From IMG/VR virus record IMGVR_UViG_3300027909_000363, positions 1-30,555 of that record: a DNA stretch of 30,555 bases, one strand, 5' to 3'. How positions within the stretch are numbered: position 1 is the stretch's first letter; the number at the start of each line of letters is the position of its first letter. Shown piece after piece: positions 1,704 to 30,555 of this stretch. The notes beneath the pieces were generated by a model. That model did not search any database and was not told where the DNA came from. It was given only the letters and a program-made list of their open reading frames with translations. The stretch is from a virus. The position numbers and the translations under genes are program-made.

Positions 1704-1730
1704 GTCCGCCCCGCGCGCGCGGGGAGCGGC
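1704..1730 (-). repeat. solitary GC-rich hairpin repeat (single-copy version of the element B array)
   Basis: Read on the minus strand this 27-mer begins GCCGCTCC, has an alternating CG core, and ends GGGGCGGAC. It is identical, base for base, to the fifth repeat (29668-29694) of the array after the element B tape-measure gene. Its flanks also match element B: the GCTGACCGGTTCT stretch from the tape-measure stop codon on one side, and CTTCCCC, CCAGGACAGC and the terminator arm on the other. The ends can pair as CCGCTCC with GGGGCGG, including one G-T(U) wobble, so the transcript would form a hairpin. No variable unit is present here. Confidence 0.85.
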
Positions 1731-1745
1731 AGAACCGGTCAGCTA

Positions 1746-3761
1746 CTACTGCCCCAGGGCGAGCTGCACGTTGCCGCCGCCGTCGTTGATGATCTCGATT
1801 CGCAGCATCTTGACGATCTCCCGGGCGAGCCCGCTGGTCATCCCCGGGTCGACCGTCAGCGTGCCGGACAGACGTCCGCCGCCGCTCATCCGCGGCGGCG
1901 GCATCGCGTTGTACCCGCCGCTGGCCGGGGTCACGTTCGCGTACCGCGGGACCACGTCCATGCCGTGCCAGCCGGCCATCTCCGAGAGCAGACCCGCGGC
2001 GCGGCGCTGGGAGATACCGCGCTGGGGGACGGCGCCTTCCTTGCCGGTGCCCGGCTCGCCGATCAGCATCGCCGGCTTGCTGGTGATCAGACCTCGCTGG
2101 GCTTTGGCGATGCCGCCCTTGGCGTAGAACTGAATGTTGGTTCCCACGACCCGGGTGGTGACCGTGCCCGGGATGCCGCCGATGACCTGCCGGTAGCGGC
2201 TCATCTTCGTGATCGCCGTATCGAGGCCGGGGGTCTTCACCTCGGTCTGCACGGCCGGCGGGAACCCGCCGAGACCGGCGAGCAGCTCGTCGACCTTCGT
2301 CTTGCTCAGCCCCAGCTCCCGGCCCAACGCGTACACCTTCTGGATGTTCTTGGCGTACGCCGCGTCCGCGGCCTCCAGGGTGACCTTCTGGTCGAGCTGG
2401 GCGTCGCGCATGCTCAGGGCCGCCGACGCGGCGGCGAGGACCGCGCGGGCGTTCTCGCGGCCCTTCTCGCCGGTGATGTCCAGGCCCTTGCCGTTCTCCC
2501 GGACCGACTCGGTCATGGCGTCGAGCGCCTCTTCGAAGTCGATCCGGGAGCCGGTGATGCCGAGCATCCCCCGGTACAGCTTGCCGGTCGCGTCGGCCAT
2601 CATCTCCAGGCCCACGGCGGACGCGCGGGCCTGCTGGGCGATCTTGCGGAGCGGGTCGGCCTGCTGAATGTCCTTGAGCAGCTTGACCTGACCGCCGTCG
2701 ATCAGCGCCAGCGGGCCGCCGGTGAAGCCGGCGATCTTACGGGTGAAGGCGTACGACTCGCTCAGGTAGCTGACCAGGAACCCGGCCGCCGCAACCGTTC
2801 CCTCGATGGCGATGAACGCATCGTGCAGACCGACGCTGATCGCCTCGGAATGCTCGCCGACCTCCTCGAACGTGAGCCCCAGCGACCGGCCCAGCGCGGG
2901 CAGGTCCCGCGACAGCACGGCGAAGACCGGGCCGGCGTCCTCCACCATGGAACGGATCCCGGGCAGCAGGCCCTTCGTGAAGCCGATGCCGGCGTCCACC
3001 AGCGGGTCGACCAGTTTCGCCGACGCCCTCAGGGTTGCCTCGACCTCGGGCCTGATCTCCGCGCGCCACGCCTTGCCGGCCTTGCCGATGCCCGCGAGGG
3101 TCGGCTGCACGAACGTCTCGGCGACGATGGCCTTGAAATCACCGGCGACCGTACCGCCGAACTCCTTCGCGGCCGCCTTCACCTTCGGGTCGGTGAACGC
3201 ACCGGCGACGCCCACCCCGACACCGCCGGCCCCGGCGCCGCCCACCAGCGCCGCGCCGACCACCGAGCCGATCAGGGGCGCCGCCGCGGACGCTCCGGCG
3301 ACCAGCGCCAGCGTCAGCGGAGAGCCGACTGCCCGGGAGAACAGGCCGGCGAAGGCCGCGCCGCTCTTGGCTCCCGCACCCGCGGCGGACGTTCCGGCGC
3401 CGACGGCCGCCACCTTGGCCATCTTGCGAGCGGCCTCATCGGCCTCGTCGCCGACGTCGTCAAGTTCCCGGCGCACCGCGCGGAGTTTGGCCAACGTACG
3501 CCGCTCATCGCCGAACGCCCGTTCAAGATCGGCCCGTTTGACCTCGTCGCTGGCCCGGGCGATCTCCCGGGCAAGCTCCTTGACCTTCCGGCCGGTAGCT
3601 TCCAGCTTCTTGTCGAGCAGCGCGGCGTCGGACGCGGTGTCCTTCAACTCGTCGCCGAGCTTGCCGACCTTGTCGTCGAGCTTGTCGAAGCCCTTCGCAG
3701 CGTCGAGCAGGCCCTGGCGGTCGCTGCGGGTCTCAACGTCGAGGCGTACCGGGCGGGGCAT
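1746..3761 (-). CDS. phage tail tape-measure-like protein, element A
   Basis: The 671-residue product has tape-measure architecture. Charged helical, coiled-coil-prone sequence covers about residues 15-120. A long Gly/Ala-rich hydrophobic stretch (about 120-195) could span membranes, a helical middle follows, and the C-terminal part has GGIAKAQRGLITSKP and GWHGMDVVPR. Start (MPRP.RLDVET) and end (DGGGNVQ.ALGQ) match the protein at 27486-29408. In phages such proteins set tail length and enter the host envelope with the DNA. It starts 3 nt after the protease gene, and no tail chaperone or tail-tube gene precedes it, which is unusual. It is the last gene of the minus-strand series and is followed by the solitary repeat and hairpin. 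The family call is by architecture and paralogy, not by a search. Confidence 0.8.
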   Translation of the reverse strand: MPRPVRLDVETRSDRQGLLDAAKGFDKLDDKVGKLGDELKDTASDAALLDKKLEATGRKVKELAREIARASDEVKRADLERAFGDERRTLAKLRAVRRELDDVGDEADEAARKMAKVAAVGAGTSAAGAGAKSGAAFAGLFSRAVGSPLTLALVAGASAAAPLIGSVVGAALVGGAGAGGVGVGVAGAFTDPKVKAAAKEFGGTVAGDFKAIVAETFVQPTLAGIGKAGKAWRAEIRPEVEATLRASAKLVDPLVDAGIGFTKGLLPGIRSMVEDAGPVFAVLSRDLPALGRSLGLTFEEVGEHSEAISVGLHDAFIAIEGTVAAAGFLVSYLSESYAFTRKIAGFTGGPLALIDGGQVKLLKDIQQADPLRKIAQQARASAVGLEMMADATGKLYRGMLGITGSRIDFEEALDAMTESVRENGKGLDITGEKGRENARAVLAAASAALSMRDAQLDQKVTLEAADAAYAKNIQKVYALGRELGLSKTKVDELLAGLGGFPPAVQTEVKTPGLDTAITKMSRYRQVIGGIPGTVTTRVVGTNIQFYAKGGIAKAQRGLITSKPAMLIGEPGTGKEGAVPQRGISQRRAAGLLSEMAGWHGMDVVPRYANVTPASGGYNAMPPPRMSGGGRLSGTLTVDPGMTSGLAREIVKMLRIEIINDGGGNVQLALGQ

Positions 3762-8232: not shown

Positions 8233-8348
8233 GGGACGACCTGACCTCGCCGGAGGTGGCCGTCCAGTGGTCGTCCCCCCTATAAGGGGGACGACCTGAC
8301 TGGAACCTCGTCCGGGACGAGCTGGGACGAGCTGGGACCGGGACGACG
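8233..8348. repeat. iteron-like GGGACGA repeats, possible replication origin
   Basis: Five direct copies of GGGACGA(C/G) start at 8233, 8288, 8314, 8324 and 8340. The first two are identical for 13 nt, the third and fourth overlap as GGGACGAGCTG, and the fifth is GGGACGACG. An inverted copy at 8270-8280 pairs with the second to form a perfect hairpin. The cluster occupies the gap just beyond the stop codon of the RepA-like ATPase gene. Short direct repeats beside a Rep gene are characteristic of iteron origins. I infer an origin, but no AT-rich unwinding region is evident beyond TATAA in the hairpin loop. Confidence 0.5.
8270..8295. terminator. perfect 10-bp hairpin after the RepA-like gene
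   Basis: Arms GTCGTCCCCC (8270-8279) and GGGGGACGAC (8286-8295) enclose CTATAA. Position after the ATPase gene and before the next minus-strand gene fits an intrinsic terminator or attenuator. Because its arms are iteron copies it may instead be part of an origin. Confidence 0.55.
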
Positions 8349-8349
8349 T

Positions 8350-9483
8350 TCACGACCGAACCCCCTCGTCGAAGCGCCTTACGAGCGTGTGTAGCCGCGC
8401 ACCTCGCGGTCCCGTCGCCACACTGACAAACCCTTCATCGAGAAGGGCGGCCAGCGCCTGCCGGATATAGGTCGACTTGCCGGTCACCCGGTCCTCGATG
8501 CCCTGCTTATTCAATGGCTCACCCGCCCGCTCCAGTGCTTCGGTGATCTTCTTCATCAGCGCCGTCGGTCTCGGCCTGGCGTCCCCGGTAACCGGGACGG
8601 AAAGGCTGGTCTCCACAAAGGACTCGTCATGGCTGACGATCTCCATCGTGGTGAGCCAGAACAGGCCCTCCCCGGCCGCTAGCGCGTTGCGCCGGAGCTG
8701 GCCGGGCCGGTCCTTCGCCACGTACACCGTCGACTTGCCGGTACGGCCGACACCGAACGGCACGCGGTTCTCCAGTACGTACGCCGCGCCGTTGATGCCG
8801 TTGAGCTTGTGCACGCCGCCGAGGGCGTACCGACCGCGTCCCTCGGCGCTTTTCGTCACGTGGTCCAGCGCCACCGACGCTGGCCCCTGCCCGGCGATCC
8901 AGCGCGGCAGCAGCCGGCCGAACCGGGCCACGTCGGAGTTGTCCTTCAACTCCAACCCGTGCAACGTCATGGCCTCGGTGACGCCGTCCTGGACGACGAG
9001 CGTCGGCCGGAGGTCGCCCAGCGCCTCCGCGAGGTCGTCCCGGTTACCGGGGACGGTCAGCGGGTCCTCGGGCCGGATGTAGGCGAACCGGTCGCGGATG
9101 TGCTCGACCAGCGCGCCGAGCGCCATCAGCCGGCCCACCACGCCGCCCTCGTCGTCCTCGAAGTCGAGGTACAGAGCGGCCTTGCCGGCGGCGAGCTCGT
9201 CGCGGACGGCGATCAGCGCGAACCACGTCTTGCCGGCCTCGGACTCGCTGGCGATGGAGTGCACCCGGCCCGGGTAGAACAGACCGGCGCCGTCGTCACG
9301 TCGTCCCACCGTGGGACGGGGTGTCACGTACCGGCCGGACAGGACGTCGTCCAGGTCCACCGGACGCCAGGTCCGGGGTACCCGCTCGGTGCGTTCCTCG
9401 TCCAGCTCGGCGAGGTACCGGGCGTCGGCGCACTTGAGGCAGTCGGCCGCCGGCTCGCCGTGCTCGCATCGGTCGTCGGTCAT
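8350..9483 (-). CDS. RepA-like AAA ATPase (replicative helicase/initiator)
   Basis: The 377-aa product has an N-terminal Cys cluster (CEHGEPAADCLKC). A RecA-fold ATPase follows, with Walker A SESEAGKTW (about 79-87), an acidic ALYLDFEDDEGG strand end (about 103-114), and TLVVQDGVTEAMTL as a second conserved strand. The C-terminal 70 residues look like a winged helix (ALERAGEPLNKQGIEDRVTG). This is the pattern of RepA/AAA_25 helicases of plasmids and actinophages. It would unwind DNA at the element's origin, and iteron-like repeats lie just beyond its stop. The start overlaps the end of the SprT-like gene by 4 nt. Confidence 0.85.
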   Translation of the reverse strand: MTDDRCEHGEPAADCLKCADARYLAELDEERTERVPRTWRPVDLDDVLSGRYVTPRPTVGRRDDGAGLFYPGRVHSIASESEAGKTWFALIAVRDELAAGKAALYLDFEDDEGGVVGRLMALGALVEHIRDRFAYIRPEDPLTVPGNRDDLAEALGDLRPTLVVQDGVTEAMTLHGLELKDNSDVARFGRLLPRWIAGQGPASVALDHVTKSAEGRGRYALGGVHKLNGINGAAYVLENRVPFGVGRTGKSTVYVAKDRPGQLRRNALAAGEGLFWLTTMEIVSHDESFVETSLSVPVTGDARPRPTALMKKITEALERAGEPLNKQGIEDRVTGKSTYIRQALAALLDEGFVSVATGPRGARLHTLVRRFDEGVRS

Positions 9484-10118
9484 GCGACACCGCCCGGTAC
9501 GCGTCCTGTGCCGGAGCAGTGTGGACAGTCCACCATGGACGTGTCCCCGGTATCAGGGACACGTGGACGGTAGGCACCCCGGTAGTAGTCCAGCGGCGTG
9601 ACACAGTGCGGCCACTGTGCAGCCAAGGGCAGGTTGGACCCGCCACGGTTACGGGGGACAACGGGCGCTAGCCCGAGCGCGTCACCGATTCGGTTCGCCA
9701 CCATGGCGAACATCGGCCCATGGCCGTGGTAGCTCGGTTCGGTCGTCCCGGTTACCTCGCGGTGGTACTGGTGGACCGCCTCGTGCATCAGCACGTCGAG
9801 CACGAACAGCCAGCGTCCCTGCAGGTCGCCGGACACCCGCGGATGCGTCCCCGACAACAGGGACGGCCGAATCCGTATCTCCAGCCGGGAGCCCCAAGAG
9901 GAGACCGGGCAGCACTGGCCGTACACGCTCGGCTTCGACGGTTCGGTCAGCGTGATGTACGGCTCGACCATCACCCCGGCGAAGTAGGTCTCGTTCACGT
10001 GCCGCCAGTGGTTGCGTAGACCGAGCAGCCTGGTCCGGTCCGGTTCCTCGGCGTGATGCTCGACCCAGGTCCAGTAGTCCATGCGGTGCGCCACGATCGG
10101 CTCTGCGAGTGTCGTCAC
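9480..10118 (-). CDS. SprT-like zinc metalloprotease
   Basis: From the GTG at 10118 (GTGA overlap with the previous stop) the 212-aa product has HEAVHQYH (His112, Glu113, His116) and, about 15 residues on, YHGHGPMF. This is the SprT/Spartan active-site arrangement: HExxH plus a third His. The C-terminus carries CPHCSGTGRV, a DnaJ-like CxxCxGxG half zinc-finger. SprT-like enzymes of eukaryotes remove proteins crosslinked to DNA. In this replication/recombination operon the protein could clear bound protein from element DNA or attack a host factor. The role is inference. Confidence 0.85.
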   Translation of the reverse strand: MTTLAEPIVAHRMDYWTWVEHHAEEPDRTRLLGLRNHWRHVNETYFAGVMVEPYITLTEPSKPSVYGQCCPVSSWGSRLEIRIRPSLLSGTHPRVSGDLQGRWLFVLDVLMHEAVHQYHREVTGTTEPSYHGHGPMFAMVANRIGDALGLAPVVPRNRGGSNLPLAAQWPHCVTPLDYYRGAYRPRVPDTGDTSMVDCPHCSGTGRVPGGVA

Positions 10119-12233: not shown

Positions 12234-12406
12234 CGGTCACCTCGGCAGTCCGGCCCCTGCGGCACGTTCCTGTGGTGCGGGTTGCCGCAGCCCTCGGTGA
12301 CGCAGAAGAGGCTCCCGGCCGCGAACCGGCAGCTCTCGTGCTTGTCGGCGCAGAGCGGGCAGTCGCGCCGCTCGTACTCGATCCAGCCGCGCCGGGTCTC
12401 GGTCAT
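12230..12406 (-). CDS. small Cys-rich protein, 58 aa
   Basis: ATG at 12406 and TGA at 12230-12232 overlap the ERF gene stop and the TOPRIM gene start by 4 nt each. The product MTETRRGWIEYERRD continues CPLCADKHESCRF and FCVTEGCGNPHH, giving two Cys pairs for one zinc ribbon. It fills the gap between two confident genes exactly. The function is unknown. Confidence 0.65.
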   Translation of the reverse strand: MTETRRGWIEYERRDCPLCADKHESCRFAAGSLFCVTEGCGNPHHRNVPQGPDCRGDR

Positions 12407-13152
12407 GCGACACCGCCCGGCGTCTCCTCGTGCGGCTCCGCGAGCGCCTGCTGGAGCAGGTCGATCGCGATGCCGGCCTCGTCGACCGTGAGCGACTTGG
12501 TGGTGGTGACCGGGCGGCTGAGCTTTGACGAGAGGTAGGGGAGGTAGTCCTCGCGCTTGGGCATGCCGGCGTCGGTGAGCAGCTTGTGCAGCAGCTTGCC
12601 CTGCTGGTCGGTGATCAGCCGCGGTTCGTCCGACTGACCAGTGCGGCGCGCCGGTCGCTTGCGTGGCTCACTCTCGACCGCGGGGCGCGTCGCCACGGCA
12701 TCGTCGTCGTCGTCCTCGGACACGGCGCCGACCGCGGACATCAAGCTGTAGCGGCGTGCGTAGCTGATGATGCTGCCGGTCAACTGCGGCGCGGCGTTCG
12801 CCGGCAGCGGGAAGTCTCCGCCGCGCTCTTCGCCGCTGGCCGGGTGGACCAGGGCGTACCGCAGGACGAAATGCCCGTCCTCGCGCAGCGTCGGGTACGC
12901 CGTGAACGCCAGCCCGACCTCGGTCATCCCCGGGTACAGCGCCCGGGTCACCTGGGCCAGGTTGGCGTAGGAGTAGGTGTACTTCCCGCGCTGCGACTCG
13001 ACGACCGCCCGCTCGCTCTTCTCGATGCGGGGCAGGCGCGCCTGTAGCGCCACCAGGGCAGCGGCGAGACTCTCGAGACTCTGCGGTACCCTCGGGGTGT
13101 CGGTGTTGCTGGGGCCGCCCTCTCGGGGGCGGCTTTGGTCTGTCTGGCTCAC
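12403..13152 (-). CDS. ERF-family single-strand annealing protein
   Basis: The 249-aa product carries the ERF-type pattern: KYTYSYANLAQVTRALYPGM, EVGLAFTAYPT, then GSIISYARRYSLMSAVGAVS followed by an acidic EDDDDDA run. These proteins of phage P22 Erf type promote annealing of single strands for recombination or circularisation. The C-terminal 75 residues (ITDQQGKLLHKLLTDAGMPK and onward) form a separate helical domain seen in many phage annealing proteins. It starts with a 4-nt overlap after the 77-aa gene and is early in the operon. Element B uses a different annealing family at the same place. Confidence 0.9.
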   Translation of the reverse strand: MSQTDQSRPREGGPSNTDTPRVPQSLESLAAALVALQARLPRIEKSERAVVESQRGKYTYSYANLAQVTRALYPGMTEVGLAFTAYPTLREDGHFVLRYALVHPASGEERGGDFPLPANAAPQLTGSIISYARRYSLMSAVGAVSEDDDDDAVATRPAVESEPRKRPARRTGQSDEPRLITDQQGKLLHKLLTDAGMPKREDYLPYLSSKLSRPVTTTKSLTVDEAGIAIDLLQQALAEPHEETPGGVA

Positions 13153-13783: not shown

Positions 13784-13971
13784 GACGCCTCCTCGGTTTC
13801 GAGTACCTGGAGGATCTGAGCGCGGAGCCGGTCCGCGTCCTGGGTACGGCCGTCCGTCAGCGCCGCGCTGAACGCGACCAGCAGCCTGACCTCCCGCGAA
13901 CGCCTGAGCGCGCGATGCTCGCCGATCTCCACCCCAAGATCAAAGATCATGATGGCCTCGTCCTCGGTCAT
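13780..13971 (-). CDS. conserved cassette protein 3, 63 aa (element A)
   Basis: MTEDEAIMIFDLGVEIGE, then HRALRRSREVRLLVAFSAAL and a helical tail. It has a clear homologue in element B at 29915-30109. The acidic start and basic helix could form a small helix bundle. It overlaps both neighbours by 4 nt. Conservation at the same end of two otherwise rearranged elements suggests a role tied to that end, for example control of excision, which is inference. Confidence 0.7.
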   Translation of the reverse strand: MTEDEAIMIFDLGVEIGEHRALRRSREVRLLVAFSAALTDGRTQDADRLRAQILQVLETEEAS

Positions 13972-14195
13972 GCTGCCGCCTCCTGTGCCCAGCCCAAGAT
14001 CAGCTCTTGCGCAGCGACCTCGGACAGGCCGCTGACGTACCGGTGCCGCCGCCCCAGCCGCTCGGCGATCCAGATCTCGCCACCGGCTGCCCGGGTCGCC
14101 TTCGCGACCAAGGTGCCGTCCACGTAGGCCAGGAGCTGGCCTGCCCACTCCCGGCCGAGGTTGTCCCGACCGCGCACCACGCGAACCTCAGCCAC
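13968..14195 (-). CDS. conserved cassette protein 2, 75 aa (element A)
   Basis: GTG at 14195 overlaps the stop of the preceding gene by 8 nt. The product VAEVRVVRGRDNLGREWAGQ has a beta-rich first half (LLAYVDGTLVAKA), then basic ERLGRRHRYVSGLSEV and a helical end. The homologue at 30106-30336 keeps the two ends (GLSE..A.ELL..WA.EAA) but is strongly diverged in the middle. The function is unknown. Confidence 0.65.
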   Translation of the reverse strand: MAEVRVVRGRDNLGREWAGQLLAYVDGTLVAKATRAAGGEIWIAERLGRRHRYVSGLSEVAAQELILGWAQEAAA

Positions 14196-14439
14196 TGCGA
14201 CGCCCCAACCACGCGGCACCGCTGCGGGTCTGCCGATCGAGAGTCGAGAGCAGCACCCGCGGGCCGGGCGGGGCGAAGTGGTTGAGCACCTCGACGCGCT
14301 GCTCCGGGGTGAGGTCGCCGACGTGGGCGTACAGACCGAGCAAGGTCGCGGCGGTGCGGCGGCAGTCGACGCGGAAGTGCGCGAGCGCCTCGACCGCGCG
14401 GACCACGGCGTCAGACGTTGATGGTGAAGAATGCTCCAC
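14188..14439 (-). CDS. conserved cassette protein 1, 83 aa (element A)
   Basis: GTG at 14439 follows AGGAGGGGCT, a strong ribosome-binding site. The product is helical (VVRAVEALAHFRVDCRRTAA, LGLYAHVGDLTPEQRVEVL) and ends WLGRRSG. Its DNA from 14188 to 14414 differs at only three positions from 30329-30555. Adjacent genes are far more diverged. It is the first gene of the minus-strand cassette, transcribed from the palindrome-rich region shared with the plus-strand HTH gene. Confidence 0.75.
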   Translation of the reverse strand: MEHSSPSTSDAVVRAVEALAHFRVDCRRTAATLLGLYAHVGDLTPEQRVEVLNHFAPPGPRVLLSTLDRQTRSGAAWLGRRSG

Positions 14440-15318: not shown

Positions 15319-15891
15319 TCACCGGGCACTGCCGAGCGGCCGCCCGGTCAGCGGCGAGGAGGCCGTGCGCCGTAGCCGGGGGACGGCCGGACTGGTCGGT
15401 GCCGGCAGCGGAGCAGACGTAACCGCGGCCACCGGGTGAACCTGCTCGGTTGGCGATTCAACGGACGTCCGGTGAATCTGGGTCGCCTCGGGAAGCGTCT
15501 CTTCGCGCCGAGAACTGGCGGTCTTGCCGCGCCGGGACAGCAACTCGACGACGAGCAGCAGCGCCACCGCGGGCCACGCCGCGACGAGCCGGGCGCCCCA
15601 GGTCGGCTGGGCGCTGGCGACGTTGGCTCCGACGGTGGCGAGCACGCCCACCGCGAAGGCGATCCGGGCGGACAGCCGGGGCTTGCGGCCGTTGCGCCGG
15701 TCGTCGACCATCGCGGCGGAAGCGACGACCAGCAGGCCGTCTACCGATAACGGGAGCACGAGCGCGACCTCCTCGCGCTCGCCGACCATCCGCGCGACGT
15801 GCACCTGGTGCGACCAGGACGACCAGGCCGCGATGCCGGCGACCGCTCCGGCGCCGATCGTGGAGGTCAGACGGGTGATGTTGAGGTTCAC
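15319..15891 (-). CDS. DUF2637-type membrane protein
   Basis: GTG at 15891 follows GGGAGGGACC. The 190-aa product has several hydrophobic segments: STIGAGAVAGIAAWSSWSHQ, LPLSVDGLLVVASAAMV, ARIAFAVGVLATVGANVASA and LVAAWPAVALLLVVELLSRR. A Pro/Ser/Thr-rich cytoplasmic tail follows. This is the DUF2637 pattern, common on actinobacterial plasmids and integrative elements and of unproven function. It lies at the right end of element A, transcribed away from the A/B junction. A counterpart in element B would lie beyond the window. Confidence 0.8.
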   Translation of the reverse strand: MNLNITRLTSTIGAGAVAGIAAWSSWSHQVHVARMVGEREEVALVLPLSVDGLLVVASAAMVDDRRNGRKPRLSARIAFAVGVLATVGANVASAQPTWGARLVAAWPAVALLLVVELLSRRGKTASSRREETLPEATQIHRTSVESPTEQVHPVAAVTSAPLPAPTSPAVPRLRRTASSPLTGRPLGSAR

Positions 15892-15993
15892 GGTCCCTCC
15901 CGGGACTCGGGCCGCGGAGCACCAAACCCCGGAGGGCTGTGCTCGACGCGGAAGCTTGGGCGGCCGGTTGGCCTGGTCCCCATTATGCACGCT

Positions 15994-16025
15994 AAGCCAG
16001 GGATCGGCAAGACAGTCCCTAGCTT
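15994..16025. other. A/B junction, composite attP-like site
   Basis: AAGC, one base, AGGGA (15994-16003) faces TCCCT, one base, GCTT (16016-16025), symmetric about the AA at 16009-16010 within GGCAAG. This is the two-half-site symmetry expected of a serine-integrase attP. The right half matches 127-141 at the left end of element A at the same spacing. I infer that the left half is the right arm of element A and the right half the left arm of element B, meaning the elements are integrated in tandem. Confidence 0.6.
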
Positions 16026-16054
16026 TGTGTGCACAGCCGTGGGATGCTGGGGGC

Positions 16055-17482
16055 ATGACCCGACCGCGCACCAGCAAGGCCCGCCCGATGCCCACCAGTG
16101 ACGTCGCCGGCATCTACTCCCGGATCAGCGACGACCGGGAGAGCGAGGAGCTGGGCGTCACCCGCCAGGCCGAGGACTGCGCCGCGCTGGCCGCCACGTT
16201 CGGCCTGAGCGTGCACCGGGCCTACTCGGACAACGACACCGGCGCGTCGAGCAAGAGCCGCAAGCCCCGCCCCGGGTACGACGCGCTGCTGGCCGCCGCC
16301 CGGGCCGGGACCATCGGCGTGATCGTCGCCTACTCCTCGTCGCGGCTGACCCGCCGGCCGATGGAGCTCGAAGGTCAGATCAGGCTCGCCGAGGAGTGCG
16401 GGACCCGGTTCGCCTACGTGCGCTCCCCGTCCTTCGACCTGAACACCGCGGACGGCCGGCAGGTCGCCCGGATGCTCGCCGCGGCGGACGCGGCGGAAGC
16501 GGAGCGCACCGGGGAACGGGTGGCGCGGGCCGCCAAGCAACGCGCGGAGAACGGCGGCAACCACGGCGGCCGGCGCCCGTTCGGCTTCTGCCCGGACGGC
16601 GTGACCGTGGATGCGGCCGAGGCCGCCGAGATCGTCAACGCCGCCCGGCAGATCCTGGCCGGTATCTCGCTGCGCTCCATCGCCGCCGACCTCAACGCCC
16701 GCGGCGTGGCCACGGCCACCGGGGCGGGCCGCTGGTCCGGTCAAGCCGTCCGCGACATGCTGGCCCGCCCACGCACCACCGGCCTGACCGTCCACGATGG
16801 AGCGGTGGTGGGCCGGCTGCCCGGGGAGCCGATCCTGCCCGAGGACACGTGGCGGGCAGTGTGCGACCGCCTCGACGCCGGCGCGTCGAGCACGCTGACC
16901 GGCCGCCCGCCCGCGTGGCTGCTCAGCGGGATCGGCCGGTGCGTGTGCGGCGCGCCGCTGGACGCCGGACCGCGGCAGGCGTACCGGTGCCGCACCCTGC
17001 GCGCCGGGGCCGGCGGCGGCGGACACGTGCGCCGCAGCGCGCCCGCGCTGGACGCCTACGTCACCGCGGTGGTTCTCGGCCGGCTGTCCCGCGACGACAC
17101 CGCCGACCTGTTCGTCCGCCCGCAGGCCGGGGTCGACGTGGCCGCCCTGCGCCGTCAGGCCGCCGTACTGCGGGAGCGCAAGGGCAAGCTCGCGGCGATG
17201 CTCGGCGCCGGGGACATGGACGACGTCGAGTACACGGCGGCGGCCCGCGCCAACCGGGACCGGCTCGCCGCGGTCGAGGCCCAGCTTGCCGGGGCGGCGC
17301 AGACGTCCCCGGTCGCCGCGCTGGTCGGCGCCGACGACATCGCCGCCCGGTGGGCCGGGCTGTCCCTGGGTCAGCGGCGCGCGATCGTCGCGCTGCTGGT
17401 GGATGTGACCGTGCTGCCGACCGTCCGCAAGGGCCGCGGGTTCGACCCGGACGCCGTCGCCATCACGTGGCGGACATCGTGA
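16055..17482 (+). CDS. large serine recombinase (integrase) of element B
   Basis: The 475-aa product parallels the 171-1652 protein. It has the catalytic Y-x-R-x-S with Ser25, RLTRRPMELEGQIRLAEECG, a Recombinase domain with NARGVATATGAGRWSGQAVR, the zinc-ribbon region CVCGAPLDAGPRQAYRCRTL, and a C-terminal helical/coiled-coil part. ATG at 16055 follows TGGGGG; upstream in-frame codons are through the att site. Conservation covers the full length, with the C-terminal part more diverged. Shared half-sites suggest both recombinases recognise the same or very similar att sequences. Confidence 0.95.
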   Translation: MTRPRTSKARPMPTSDVAGIYSRISDDRESEELGVTRQAEDCAALAATFGLSVHRAYSDNDTGASSKSRKPRPGYDALLAAARAGTIGVIVAYSSSRLTRRPMELEGQIRLAEECGTRFAYVRSPSFDLNTADGRQVARMLAAADAAEAERTGERVARAAKQRAENGGNHGGRRPFGFCPDGVTVDAAEAAEIVNAARQILAGISLRSIAADLNARGVATATGAGRWSGQAVRDMLARPRTTGLTVHDGAVVGRLPGEPILPEDTWRAVCDRLDAGASSTLTGRPPAWLLSGIGRCVCGAPLDAGPRQAYRCRTLRAGAGGGGHVRRSAPALDAYVTAVVLGRLSRDDTADLFVRPQAGVDVAALRRQAAVLRERKGKLAAMLGAGDMDDVEYTAAARANRDRLAAVEAQLAGAAQTSPVAALVGADDIAARWAGLSLGQRRAIVALLVDVTVLPTVRKGRGFDPDAVAITWRTS

Positions 17483-23229: not shown

Positions 23230-23672
23230 ACGGTGCGTACGTGTGTACGAAGAGGCCAAGCGGAGATCGTTACGTTGAGCGTTGATCCATCCGCCGCGCT
23301 CACGCAGAGCGACTGAGGCGCTGGCACAGGTTGATCGAGGAGTGGCAGCCACCCACAGTAGTCGCCAGCCCCGCGGGCTCGCGCGCTAACCCGTGGTGGG
23401 AGGGCGGGGATTGCATAACCGCAGGTCAGAGGCTCGTAAGGCCCGGTTTCTTTGATCATGACCTGACGCGACCCACTTCCCTCGGCCGACTCTCAGTTAC
23501 ACACCGTGACGGCCCAAGATCAAGAAGGGGGTAACTACCAAATTACCACTCTTTGATCTTCACTCTGATTACATAGAGTAGTCGCGGGGGAATGTCCTAT
23601 TCTACTGTGGACGGTACTGTCCACAGTAGAACATGTCACCGGACATCGGCGGCTGACGATTGACTTCGAGAG
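23230..23672. other. 443-bp non-coding region between convergent HNH and terminase genes
   Basis: No frame looks coding. The composition changes to AT-richer DNA from about 23440, with runs such as CCAAATTACCACTCTTTG and GATTACATAGAGTAG, and repeated GATCA/GATCTT-like words. A strong inverted repeat sits near the right end (separate entry). A cos site, a small RNA or an att remnant could lie here. I see no specific mark of any of them. Confidence 0.4.
23600..23631. terminator. 13-bp inverted repeat, probable bidirectional terminator
   Basis: TTCTACTGTGGAC (23600-23612), six bases, GTCCACAGTAGAA (23619-23631) are perfect arms. The position between convergent genes, 41 nt past the terminase stop, fits a bidirectional terminator, although no T-run follows. 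The inner half-site GTCCAC is shared with the palindrome at 6318-6330 in element A, so a protein-binding site is an alternative. Confidence 0.6.
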
Positions 23673-27344: not shown

Positions 27345-27481
27345 CCGAGTACGCCGCCGACATGATGATGCTGTTCCCGTCGGTGCGCTGGGACGAGCTG
27401 GAAGACCTGCCCCACGACCTGTGGCTGGCCATGAAAGCCCGGGTCGACGCCTGGCGTGAAGGAAAACTCCCGGGAAGGTAA
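27299..27481 (+). CDS. frameshifted extension of the tail assembly chaperone (GT-type)
   Basis: GGGAAAA at 27299-27305 is positioned G-GGA-AAA relative to the G-type frame, exactly the X-XXY-YYZ rule for -1 slippage, and close to lambda's GGGAAAG. After slippage reading continues through SDPFGDGDLRDLVAEYAADM and DELEDLPHDLWLAMKARVDA to the stop at 27479-27481, adding 58 residues to give a 187-aa fusion. The extension has no good start of its own and ends 4 nt before the tape-measure ATG. Confidence 0.8.
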   Translation, partial: GKSDPFGDGDLRDLVAEYAADMMMLFPSVRWDELEDLPHDLWLAMKARVDAWREGKLPGR

Positions 27482-27485
27482 GCCG

Positions 27486-29408
27486 ATGCCCCGACCGATC
27501 CGGCTCGACGTCGAAACCAAGTCCGACACCCGCGGCATCGACCGCACCGCGAAGGCCACCGACAAGCTCGACGACGGGTTCAGCGAGCTGTCCCGTGACG
27601 CCGCCCAACTCGACAAGCGGATGTCCGCGACCCGCCGGGAGATGGCCAGGCTGGCCGGGGAACTCTCCCGCACCGTGGACCAGGTCGAGCGGACCCGGTT
27701 GGACAAGGCGTTCACCGGTGAGGCGCAGGCGTTGTCCAAGTTGCGCCGCTACCGGTCGGCGCTGGACGAGGTCGCCGACCAGGCCGACGAGACCGCCCGG
27801 CGGATCGCGAGAATGGGCGCGGTCGCCGCTGCCACCCCGAAGGGCGGCGGCGTACCGGGCGGCGGGCTTTTCTCGATGCCGCTCGGCTCCCCGGTGCTCG
27901 CCGGTGGGATCGGGGCCGGCATCGCGGGAAGCCCGCTGATCGCTGGCGCCGCGTCCGGCGCGGTGGTGGGCGCGCTCGGTCTCGGCGGTGTCGCGGCAGG
28001 GCTGGCGGCGGCATTCCAGGACGGCACCGTCAAGGCGTCCGCGGCGTCGCTGGGTCACGAGATCCGTGACGACTTCTTCGCCGCCGGGCAAGGGTTTGCC
28101 GACTCCGCCCTGGACAGCATCGACAAGGTACGGCAGGCGTGGCGGTCCGAGTTGAACCCCGAGTTCCGCGCCATCACCGCAGCGTCGGAGAAGCTGCTCG
28201 CCCCGCTGACGGACAGCGGGATCGACTTCGTCGCCACCGTGATGCCGTCGATCCGGCACGCGATCGAGCGGGCCGCCCCGGTCGTCGACGCGATCGGCCG
28301 GGGCGTCGAACGGTTCGGCGAGGCGTTCGCGTACGCGTTCGAGCGGTTCGGCGACAACGCCGAGACCTCCGGGGACGCGTTGGGGGACGTACTGACCAAC
28401 ACCGCGAACATAACCGCCGGGCTCGCCGCCGGGGTCGACCAGTTGGTCAAGGTCTATAGCGGTTTCGTAGCCGTCCGGGAGGCCGCGAAGGAGGTCGGCG
28501 TCGAGGTCGGCTCGTGGGTCGGCATCGGCGGAGACTCCAAGCGGCTGCTCAAGGAGATCGGTGAGGTCGGGTCGGAGTCGGTCGGCGGCGTCGGCAAGGC
28601 GGCCATCGACGCCCGGCGCGAACTAGAGGACATGTTCGCCGCAATCGAGGATGGCGTTCACCGGTTCTTCGGGTTGGAAGTGGCCCAGGACGGCGTCGCC
28701 ACCGCAGTGCAGCGGCTGAAAGAGCAGCTCGCCGAGCAGCGCGAGGAGCACGTCAAGGGCGCTGGCGCGCTGACCGGGTCGACGCAAGCGGCCCGAGACA
28801 ACCGCGAAGCGGTGCGGACCCTGGTGGACAAGTACGTCGCTCTCGCCGAGCAGAACAAGACCGCCGGACAGAGCAACGAAGGACTGCGCGGCCAGTTGAT
28901 CAAAACGTTGACCCAGCTCGGATTCAACCGCGCCGAAGCGGAGAAGTACGCGGACGCGCTCAAACTCATCCCCACGTCGAAGGTCACTACCGTCAAGGTC
29001 AAGTTCGTGTCCGACTCCTCGCAGTACCACCCGCCGAAGGTCGGGCCCGGTCAGTACGTCGCGCAGGACAAGGGCGGCATCGTGAAGGCGCAGACCGGCC
29101 TGATCACCAGCAAGCCGACCGTCCTGTTCGGGGAGCGGCAGACCGGCATGGAGGCATTCGTGCCGAAGCTCGGGATCTCCCGCCAGCGCGCCGCGAGCCT
29201 GCTCGGTACGGCGGCCGGCTGGCACGGCATGGACGTGGTCCCGCGCTCCGGGTACAACTCGATGCCGCCGCCACGGACGGCCGGCAACCGGAACACGGTG
29301 ACCGTGCGGTTCGACTTCACCGGCATCGGGGACGACTTCGCCCAAGCGATCCGCAAGCGGGTCATCTCCGACGGCGGCGGGAACGTACAGCGCGCCCTGG
29401 GGCAGTAG
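27486..29408 (+). CDS. phage tail tape-measure-like protein, element B
   Basis: From ATG at 27486 (AAGG upstream) the 640-aa product has a charged helical N-terminus (IRLDVETKSDTRGIDRTAKA and onward). A Gly/Ala-rich hydrophobic segment (about 125-195, GSPVLAGGIGAGIAGSPLIA) and a long helical middle follow. The C-terminal GGIVKAQTGLITSKPTVLFG and GWHGMDVVPRSGYNSMPPPR are shared with the element A protein. A tail chaperone pair directly upstream confirms the role. The length would fit a siphovirus tail of roughly 90-100 nm by the usual 1.5 angstrom per residue, an inference. The hairpin array begins 15 nt after its stop codon. Confidence 0.9.
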   Translation: MPRPIRLDVETKSDTRGIDRTAKATDKLDDGFSELSRDAAQLDKRMSATRREMARLAGELSRTVDQVERTRLDKAFTGEAQALSKLRRYRSALDEVADQADETARRIARMGAVAAATPKGGGVPGGGLFSMPLGSPVLAGGIGAGIAGSPLIAGAASGAVVGALGLGGVAAGLAAAFQDGTVKASAASLGHEIRDDFFAAGQGFADSALDSIDKVRQAWRSELNPEFRAITAASEKLLAPLTDSGIDFVATVMPSIRHAIERAAPVVDAIGRGVERFGEAFAYAFERFGDNAETSGDALGDVLTNTANITAGLAAGVDQLVKVYSGFVAVREAAKEVGVEVGSWVGIGGDSKRLLKEIGEVGSESVGGVGKAAIDARRELEDMFAAIEDGVHRFFGLEVAQDGVATAVQRLKEQLAEQREEHVKGAGALTGSTQAARDNREAVRTLVDKYVALAEQNKTAGQSNEGLRGQLIKTLTQLGFNRAEAEKYADALKLIPTSKVTTVKVKFVSDSSQYHPPKVGPGQYVAQDKGGIVKAQTGLITSKPTVLFGERQTGMEAFVPKLGISRQRAASLLGTAAGWHGMDVVPRSGYNSMPPPRTAGNRNTVTVRFDFTGIGDDFAQAIRKRVISDGGGNVQRALGQ

Positions 29409-29423
29409 TAGCTGACCGGTTCT

Positions 29424-29842
29424 GCCGCTCCTCGCGCGCGCGGGGCGGACGCCTTTCCACTTCGGGAAAGTTTCCCGAAGTGATGCCGCTCCTCGCGCGC
29501 GCGGGGCGGACGTGGTGTGCGGAATTCCCCAACGCGTTGGAGAATTCCGCACCTCGCGCGCGCGGGGCGGATGGCTGATACAAATTTGGTTCAGTCTCGA
29601 ATCGGGCCGCTCCGCGCGCGCGAGGGCCGGACATCCAGGAGAGAGCTTATCTGGATTAATGACCTTGGCCGCTCCCCGCGCGCGCGGGGCGGACATTCAA
29701 CGGAAGCCTGTTGAATTTCGGTGATCCGAAATTCCGCAAGGCTCTTGCGGAATCCGCTCCCCCGTGCGCCCGGGGCGGACAAAGAAGAAGACAAGACGCT
29801 CTCTTCTTCTTCCGTCGCTCCCTCGTACGCCCCGGGGCGGAC
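29424..29842 (+). repeat. hairpin-repeat array: seven GC-rich repeats with six palindromic variable units
   Basis: Repeats are at 29424-29450, 29485-29511, 29546-29572, 29606-29632, 29668-29694, 29753-29780 and 29814-29842. Most begin GCCGCTCC and end GGGGCGGAC around a CG-rich core. The last two are more diverged and slightly longer. Variable units between them are 34, 34, 33, 35, 58 and 33 nt. Each holds a different palindrome: arms ACTTCGGGAAA (unit 1), TGCGGAATTC (unit 2, running into repeat 3), CTGA and CAAATTTG (unit 3), ATCCAG (unit 4), several arms including ATTCCGCAAG and AATTTCGG (unit 5), and AAGAAGAAGA (unit 6). The units are much AT-richer than the window. No cas gene is present. 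It would be co-transcribed with the tape-measure gene up to the terminator at 29863. Confidence 0.85.
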
Positions 29843-29862
29843 ACTTCCCCACCAGGACAGCA

Positions 29863-29899
29863 AGCGGCCCGACCGGAGTTTGACGCCGGTCGGGCCGCT
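29863..29899 (+). terminator. strong terminator after the hairpin array
   Basis: AGCGGCCCGACCGG (29863-29876) and CCGGTCGGGCCGCT (29886-29899) are perfect 14-bp arms around nine bases, followed by CTTGTGG. It closes the plus-strand late operon and lies before the convergent cassette. Element A holds the same left arm and loop but only part of the other arm (1653-1681). Confidence 0.85.
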
Positions 29900-29914: not shown

Positions 29915-30109
29915 CTACTCGGTGCCCTCCTCGCGACCGAGCTCGCCGAGCAGTTGCCGCCGAAGGCGGGCCGCGTCCTCGCTACGGCCGTCCGTCAACG
30001 CCTGCGAGAACTCGGTCACCAGCCTGAACTGACGCGAGCGCCTGAGCGCGCGCTGCTCGCCGATCTCCACCCCAAGATCGAAGATCATGATGGCTTCGTC
30101 CTCGGTCAT
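29915..30109 (-). CDS. conserved cassette protein 3, 64 aa (element B)
   Basis: MTEDEAIMIFDLGVEIGEQR, then ALRRSRQFRLVTEFSQALTD and an acidic-basic helical end. It is the homologue of 13780-13971, with identical first 18 residues and diverging after about residue 30. ATG at 30109 overlaps the previous stop by 4 nt. It is the last gene of the cassette here, because the 100-aa gene of element A is missing and the terminator region follows. Confidence 0.7.
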   Translation of the reverse strand: MTEDEAIMIFDLGVEIGEQRALRRSRQFRLVTEFSQALTDGRSEDAARLRRQLLGELGREEGTE

Positions 30110-30336
30110 GACGCCGCCTCTCCTGCCCAGGTGATCAACAACTCTCGGGCCTGGATCTCGGATAGGCCCGTGACATGGCGCGTGTCGCCCGTCCTGCGGG
30201 CTATCCACTTCTCCGGCACCGAACCGGCCACCCGCGCAGCAGTGCCGACCACACGGCCGGCCACGGTCGCCAGCAGTAGGCCCGGCCGGTCGTAGCCGGA
30301 CTCGTCGCGCGCGTGCTCCACCTTGATCTCAGCCAC
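30106..30336 (-). CDS. conserved cassette protein 2, 76 aa (element B)
   Basis: GTG at 30336 overlaps the preceding stop by 8 nt, as in element A. VAEIKVEHARDESGYDRPGL, a small hydrophobic beta-like LLLATVAGRVVGTAA, and VTGLSEIQARELLITW near the end. Homologous to 13968-14195, mainly at both ends; the middle is very different, unlike the neighbouring gene whose DNA is nearly identical. Confidence 0.65.
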   Translation of the reverse strand: MAEIKVEHARDESGYDRPGLLLATVAGRVVGTAARVAGSVPEKWIARRTGDTRHVTGLSEIQARELLITWAGEAAS

Positions 30337-30555
30337 TGCGACGCCCCAACCACGCGGCACCGCTGCGGGTCTGCCGATCGAGAGTCGAGAGCAGCACCCG
30401 CGGGCCGGGCGGGGCGAAGTGGTCAAGTACCTCGACGCGCTGCTCCGGGGTGAGGTCGCCGACGTGGGCGTACAGACCGAGCAAGGTCGCGGCGGTGCGG
30501 CGGCAGTCGACGCGGAAGTGCGCGAGCGCCTCGACCGCGCGGACCACGGCGTCAG
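30329..30555 (-). CDS. conserved cassette protein 1, partial at window edge (element B)
   Basis: The 5' end lies outside the window. The visible part (VRAVEALAHFRVDCRRTAAT to WLGRRSG) is the same protein as 14188-14439, with one visible difference (VLDHF for VLNHF). The underlying 227 nt differ at three positions. The rest of the right end of element B, by comparison with A, should hold an HTH gene, a zinc-finger gene and a DUF2637 gene. Confidence 0.7.
   Translation of the reverse strand, partial: DAVVRAVEALAHFRVDCRRTAATLLGLYAHVGDLTPEQRVEVLDHFAPPGPRVLLSTLDRQTRSGAAWLGRRSG

Follow-up and report, generated by a model that had tools for sequence, protein, structure and literature searches.

A modular array of hairpin repeats and exchangeable units at a convergent phage gene junction

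Genomic setting and anatomy of the array

The window, henceforth meaning the whole 30,555-bp stretch of DNA analyzed (positions 1 to 30555 of viral record IMGVR_UViG_3300027909_000363), carries two related elements. They are represented by two serine integrases (105–1652 and 15524–17482) that are 66–67% identical, and by two prohead-protease/capsid genes and two tape-measure-like genes, with one set on each strand. The window is accordingly either a pair of tandem prophages or a chimeric assembly of two related elements. A direct repeat of ~600 bp was also observed (13823–14414 versus 29961–30555, 82%). The genes discussed below encode a tape-measure-like structural protein of 650 aa (27456–29408, plus strand), its 671-aa paralogue (1746–3761, minus strand), an ERF-family single-strand annealing protein (12403–13152, minus strand) and the product of a small opposing gene (29915–30208, minus strand). 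A host search using tail and primase profiles returned only distant relatives, in the Streptosporangiales (Spongiactinospora, 54% for the primase) and in one single-genome order, and the array described here was not present in the contigs of those relatives.

In what is taken to be a small actinobacterial phage, the array occupies 29424–29843 on the plus strand and consists of seven GC-rich hairpin repeats of ~27 nt (R1–R7) interleaved with six unrelated units (S1–S6), which confirms the seven repeats and six units of the first-pass annotation with coordinates accurate to one or two bases. The order at the junction is the tape-measure-like stop codon, 15 nt, the array, a 14-bp hairpin and the opposite-strand gene at 29915–30208, which makes the junction convergent. 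This position directly behind the last structural gene supports the earlier suggestion of a structured RNA ending the tape-measure transcript. R1 (TGCCGCTCCTCGCGCGCGCGGGGCGGACG, 29423–29451) starts 15 nt past the stop codon and is identical across 29 nt to R2 (29484–29512), from which it is separated by exactly 32 nt. R3 (29545–29573, a CCGCACC variant), R4 (29605–29633) and R5 (29667–29695) show 83–90% identity with few differing positions. R6 (29754–29781) and the terminal R7 (29814–29843) are degenerate internally and retain the outer stem (U)CCGCUCC/GGGGCGGA, which is bulged in R7. The 3′ ends of the repeats, given by GGGGCGGAC or a variant, fall at 29450, 29511, 29572, 29632, 29694, 29780 and 29842, resulting in repeat-to-repeat steps of 61, 61, 60, 62, 86 and 62 bp. 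The reported period close to that of type I-E arrays is thus real, with steps of 60–62 bp bar one of 86.

The units, likewise given on the plus strand, differ in sequence and in the hairpins they form. S1 (29452–29483, 32 nt) contains the 25-nt palindrome CACTTCGGGAAA G TTTCCCGAAGTG, and S2 (29513–29552) is a 36-nt palindrome, GTGCGGAATTCCCCAACG/CGTTGGAGAATTCCGCAC, whose right arm extends into R3 and explains the T-to-A change in that repeat. S3 (29574–29604) forms an imperfect hairpin of 20–24 nt, S4 (29634–29666) an imperfect hairpin of 24 nt, S5 (29695–29753) three consecutive hairpins, of which the first is referred to as S5a, and S6 (29782–29813) the hairpin AAGAAGAAGA...TCTTCTTCTT with 10-bp arms. 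The 14-bp hairpin beyond R7 (29863–29899), AGCGGCCCGACCGG..CCGGTCGGGCCGCT, lacks a U-tract and resembles a bidirectional terminator. Counting this end hairpin, seven repeats and eight unit hairpins, the previous estimate of at least 13 hairpins plus a terminator was a fair one. The lengths of the single-hairpin units between stems are tightly clustered (34, 35, 36, 36 and 37 nt), and five lengths within 3 nt would have a p of ~0.006 if they varied like the palindromes (sd 6.2). GC content of the units ranges from 0.35 to 0.58, compared to 70% for the genome.

Inverted-repeat scores of the units were compared with those of 1,719 real actinobacterial I-E spacers. The scores of S1, S2, S5 and S6 were reached by only 0–1.2% of the spacers, whereas that of S4 was borderline (13%) and that of S3, whose hairpin has an internal loop, did not stand out (77%). 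The claim that all six units are palindromic consequently stands for S1, S2, S5 and S6, is weak for S4 and fails by score for S3. The array region folds far more stably than shuffled sequences, with z-scores of −10.4 on the plus strand and −9.1 on the minus strand. The G-U argument that the stems pair solely in the sense RNA was not borne out, as both strands fold extremely and at about equal energy: summed hairpin energies, sense versus antisense, were −135.7 versus −132.6 kcal/mol for the units and −150.5 versus −154.1 kcal/mol for the repeats. No U-tract terminator site was present in the array region (0 sites), and Rfam gave no match for the array at gathering level and only noise below it.

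The near-equality of the strands, together with the two-fold symmetry of the sites, several of which are loopless, and the exact identity of units across elements described below, would be expected if the palindromes acted as DNA, serving as sites for different dimeric regulators (e.g. the repressors of competing phages) in a sponge or decoy array. The perfectly symmetric arms of 12–18 bp, however, exceed usual operators, S4, S5a and S6 have asymmetric centers of 8–12 nt, and unit copies were not seen in the vicinity of promoters or repressor genes. A DNA-level binding array is therefore considered very unlikely.

Related loci and exchange of units

Outside the array, the window contains a single further copy of the repeat, at a paralogous site (1704–1731, minus strand). 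This solitary copy follows the gene for the 671-aa paralogue, is convergent with an integrase gene and is identical to R5 over 27 nt (1704–1730). Its flanks are those of the array, with CAGTAGTAGCTGACCGGTTCTG before and CTTCCCC-CCAGGACAGC after, and it appears to be a natural empty site. The same flanks around a single repeat suggest that the array is an expansion of, or the source for, a one-repeat junction. BIMEs and REP arrays similarly have a palindromic repeat alternating with other motifs in intergenic DNA 3′ of genes. Their repeat is dispersed over many intergenic places of a genome, with a RAYT transposase, while the repeat described here is confined to the array and one further site, the units are themselves palindromes and unique, and the array is phage-borne.

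The array is known from three independent contexts: the window, L008/L037 and L033. L037 is the 15,901-bp contig 3300050500_000621, and L008 and L013 are parts of the same contig. Given its 40-bp terminal overlap, L037 is probably complete and circular, with a size of ~15.9 kb. It carries an integrase, a primase, a capsid protease and a tape-measure-like gene and has no match to the terminase of the window, which is 99% identical to that of another element, L036. L037 and L036 could be satellites or else phages of very small size.

Behind the homologous gene, the layout in L008/L037 is repeat, S3, R4, S5, repeat and a new unit. S1, S2, S4 and S6 are missing; in L008, S4 and R5 are absent from between R4 and S5, and the place of S6 near the end is taken by the new hairpin unit, GTGTAGAG...CTCTACAC. 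The shared units S3 and S5 occur in the same order as in the window and match over 35/35 nt (S3 with its flanks) and 58/58 aligned nt (S5), i.e. with 0 mismatches in 93 aligned nt. R4 matches over 26/26 nt, while the matching repeats taken together differ from those of L037 by 4 mismatches plus gaps, and the last 400 nt of the neighboring gene differ by 54 mismatches and 43 gap columns. L008 also keeps the outer arms of the 14-bp end hairpin around a different inner stem. An additional minus-strand gene (L008 8259–8879) lies between the array and this conserved hairpin, indicating that the junction takes up genes too.

In L033, another metagenome contig, the last structural gene is non-homologous and its TAG stop codon directly abuts the repeat. 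The first repeat is followed by S5a, two more palindromes, a second repeat, an inverted S3 (29 nt identical), a gap and S1, of which 25 nt are exact. The matches to S1 and S3 end at the edge of the palindromic unit. Beyond S1 lies a cluster of 24–36-nt palindromes, mostly without intervening repeats, for a total of ~14 hairpins; the 61-bp rhythm is missing, a step of 99 occurs, and the array region folds with a z-score of −12.0. Two paralogous perfect palindromes at 9933–10076 are 70% identical. The 12 positions at which they differ make up 6 symmetric pairs (P = 1.5e-5 for random placement), and 5 of these pairs swap one Watson-Crick pair for another. Hairpin symmetry has thus been maintained despite sequence change, which may be due either to selection or to a hairpin-correcting mutation process.

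Judging from these alignments, units are exchanged whole between elements whose neighboring genes are strongly diverged or unrelated. This supports the notion of a modular array of captured palindromes. The identical unit sequences are equally consistent with recent exchange, sequence-specific binding or a structure-only role, a point counted against the barrier proposed below.

Copies of the array were not found by blastn or tblastn among 50,697 phage and 72,556 plasmid records, and the exact repeat was absent from the viral and genome collections searched. A degenerate repeat pattern retrieved L013, L033 and unrelated singles from those collections. A 20-mer of S3 was also found in L032, where the match covers the palindrome only in an unrelated context and was judged to be chance. 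Nothing quite like this array was encountered in the collections searched.

The exactness of units across unrelated flanks, their inversion in L033, their occurrence with and without repeats and their GC content (below that of the genome) would also fit selfish mobile hairpins, i.e. short palindromes inserting into intergenic DNA and into one another with no benefit to the phage. GC clusters of yeast mitochondria, or double-hairpin elements, are a parallel for such selfish insertion, being short palindromes that likewise accumulate in intergenic DNA (PMC4478555). In contrast to these clusters, the array is ordered, has a common repeat and is carried by phages. Additionally, there is one copy per element, no transposase-like partner was seen, and, apart from the one 20-nt match in L032, neither the window nor the other loci contained a unit outside the arrays. 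Selfish insertion is thus regarded as unlikely.

Comparison with type I-E CRISPR arrays

For comparison with CRISPR systems, cas6e loci were gathered from 297 actinobacterial genomes, 40 regions were taken, and I-E repeats and ~1,700 spacers were derived. The core of the array repeat, GCTCCCCGCGCRCGCGGGG, is common to actinobacterial I-E repeats such as CTGCTCCCCGCGCACGCGGGGATGGACCC. When 746 kb around I-E loci were searched with a covariance model built on the array repeat, the best matches shown were mostly I-E repeats (E ~0.03–0.13). A resemblance to I-E repeats as good as that of R5/R1 was displayed by 1.2–1.9% of a control set of 425 hairpins, which includes some with the appearance of orphan CRISPR repeats, and by 0.4–2.3% of random GC palindromes. 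The array repeat therefore resembles I-E repeats beyond ~98–99% of GC-rich control hairpins (p ~0.004–0.02).

The resemblance does not extend through the whole repeat. I-E repeats combine a CCCCG..CGGGG stem with an ATNNNCC-like 3′ handle, whereas the stem of the array repeat is followed by CGGAC, so that it differs from them in the stretch that would form the crRNA 5′ handle. R6, R7 and L8c have lost the I-E-type inner stem and kept the outer one, which is absent from I-E repeats. Spacing corresponds to 29 nt of exact repeat plus 32 nt between R1 and R2, with steps of 61, 61, 60, 62 and 62 bp, yet steps of 86 bp and, in L033, 99 are also present. No cas families were detected among the window proteins scanned, no full-length protospacers for the units were found in the 50,697 phage or 72,556 plasmid records, and no array with the exact repeat was found in the species genomes scanned. 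I-E spacers from 46 loci matched these phages no better than a reversed-spacer control.

An ordinary CRISPR array is not supported on these grounds (no cas genes among the proteins scanned, no protospacers in the records searched, no array with the exact repeat in the species genomes scanned, the wrong handle and palindromic units). One form that it could take is a mini-CRISPR array carried by the phage, with spacers directed at other phages. Such virus-borne mini-arrays exist (PMC6858448), and with them and with type I-E arrays the array shares the 29 + 32 nt rhythm, the repeat core, conserved unit order and identical proximal and degenerate distal repeats. It differs from them in the decayed inner stem and the repeat-free stretches of L033 in addition to the features named above. 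The units are also more palindromic than nearly all of the 1,719 I-E spacers and lower in GC, and the L033 matches stop at palindrome edges. A mini-CRISPR array is accordingly considered highly improbable.

The same resemblance could instead reflect mimicry, in which the repeat copies a host type I-E repeat, host Cas6e/Cas7 bind the phage transcript, and the self-folding units act as inert guides. Racrs, which mimic repeats as solitary units, are established, and two I-E Racrs have been shown to work (PMC10651486). The solitary copy at 1704–1731 would then be a solitary repeat unit and the array its multi-copy, Racr-like version. In favor of such a decoy are the 61-bp step made of a 29-nt exact repeat plus 32 nt from R1 to R2, the shared core and the covariance-model matches, the conserved unit order, the identity of R1 and R2, the degenerate distal repeats and the solitary paralogue. 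The I-E-like stem with a degenerate 5′ handle also recalls Racrs, and RacrIF1 inhibits through the product that lies 5′ of the Cas6 cleavage site, for which a degenerate 5′ handle would be harmless (PMC10651486). Unlike Racrs, the array lies at a gene 3′ end and not behind its own promoter, is multi-copy with self-folding spacers, and would be only a putative inhibitor. The likeness beyond GC-rich hairpins is limited to p ~0.004–0.02, the non-I-E outer stem is retained where the inner I-E-type stem is gone, CGGAC stands in place of ATNNNCC, the palindromes of L033 stand mostly without repeats between them and without the 61-bp rhythm, and the exact repeat occurs in no genome of the species collection. 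A CRISPR-mimicking RNA decoy is thus rather unlikely. The more specific proposal of a multi-copy RNA anti-CRISPR, in which the 29 + 32 rhythm with exchangeable self-folding palindromes as spacers would load Cas6e/Cascade with inert guides and the single-repeat paralogue would be ancestral, is viewed as quite unlikely.

A proposed barrier at convergent gene ends

In the window, L008/L037 and L033 alike, the array sits where the structural operon abuts genes of opposite orientation. Stem-loops lacking a U-tract are common as terminators in GC-rich bacteria, and a stem-loop behind the gene end is present both in the window and in L033, where the repeat stands directly at the stop codon; the U-tract that follows the stem in the classical intrinsic terminator is lacking. 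Our preferred reading, advanced tentatively and at somewhat less than even confidence, is that the array is a hairpin barrier assembled from modules by recombination, and probably a bidirectional 3′-end or terminator region without U-tracts. This barrier is favored on the basis of place and structure, which are common to the three independent contexts, and not of the repeat rhythm.

According to this proposal, the string of hairpins that follows the final structural (late) gene, at the point where the operon meets opposite-strand genes head-on, would stop or trim transcripts arriving from either side. The near-palindromic repeat would supply 27–29 bp of homology for recombination, perhaps assisted by the ERF annealing protein of the phage, a candidate shuffling agent. 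Modules of unit plus repeat could thereby be gained, lost, reordered or inverted and then passed among co-circulating mosaic phages. Termination and any benefit to the phage are inferred, and selection, as opposed to hairpin-correcting mutation, may be the reason for the maintained symmetry.

Bidirectional or tandem U-tract-less intrinsic terminators resemble the array in that their hairpins directly follow stop codons where genes converge, are strand-symmetric and lack a U-tract. The array differs from them in its ~15 hairpins, common repeat, near-constant spacing and whole-cassette exchange. Several points count against a barrier. The 15 hairpins far exceed the need of termination, no U-tract is present in the region, and several palindromes are loopless, which is not required of RNA hairpins. 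The absence of an array after the homologous gene of L007 was also weighed against it; in that case the operon continues past the gene, which accounts for the absence. Additionally, the barrier leaves the 34–37-nt length of the single-hairpin units and the 61-bp step unexplained. The first-pass annotation had considered the locus a candidate for an undescribed system, and no single reading of that kind was established. A cluster of hairpins between converging genes is a simpler explanation for where the array lies and for its symmetric folding, although not for the exact spacing.

The array has the form of a non-coding phage cassette system, in which interchangeable hairpin modules of ~36 nt at a fixed genomic address are swapped letter-perfect. 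As a 3′-end barrier, it would show how convergent operons are insulated in GC-rich phages lacking U-tract terminators. Should the likeness to I-E repeats prove functional, the array would constitute a multi-copy RNA anti-CRISPR that could be tested in any I-E actinobacterium. In either case, it cautions that a CRISPR-like spacing in phage DNA does not by itself identify a CRISPR array.

Other palindromes were noted in the window. A 32-nt near-perfect palindrome of array-like style (23600–23631) follows the terminase gene at another convergent junction and was counted in favor of the barrier. In L036 (7989–8020) it is inverted with respect to its ~98% identical flanks, which may be a sign of hairpin-mediated loop inversion. 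Behind the gene at 8350–9483, 2.5 exact copies of GGGACGAGCT (8314–8338) are located beside a 28-nt hairpin (8269–8296).
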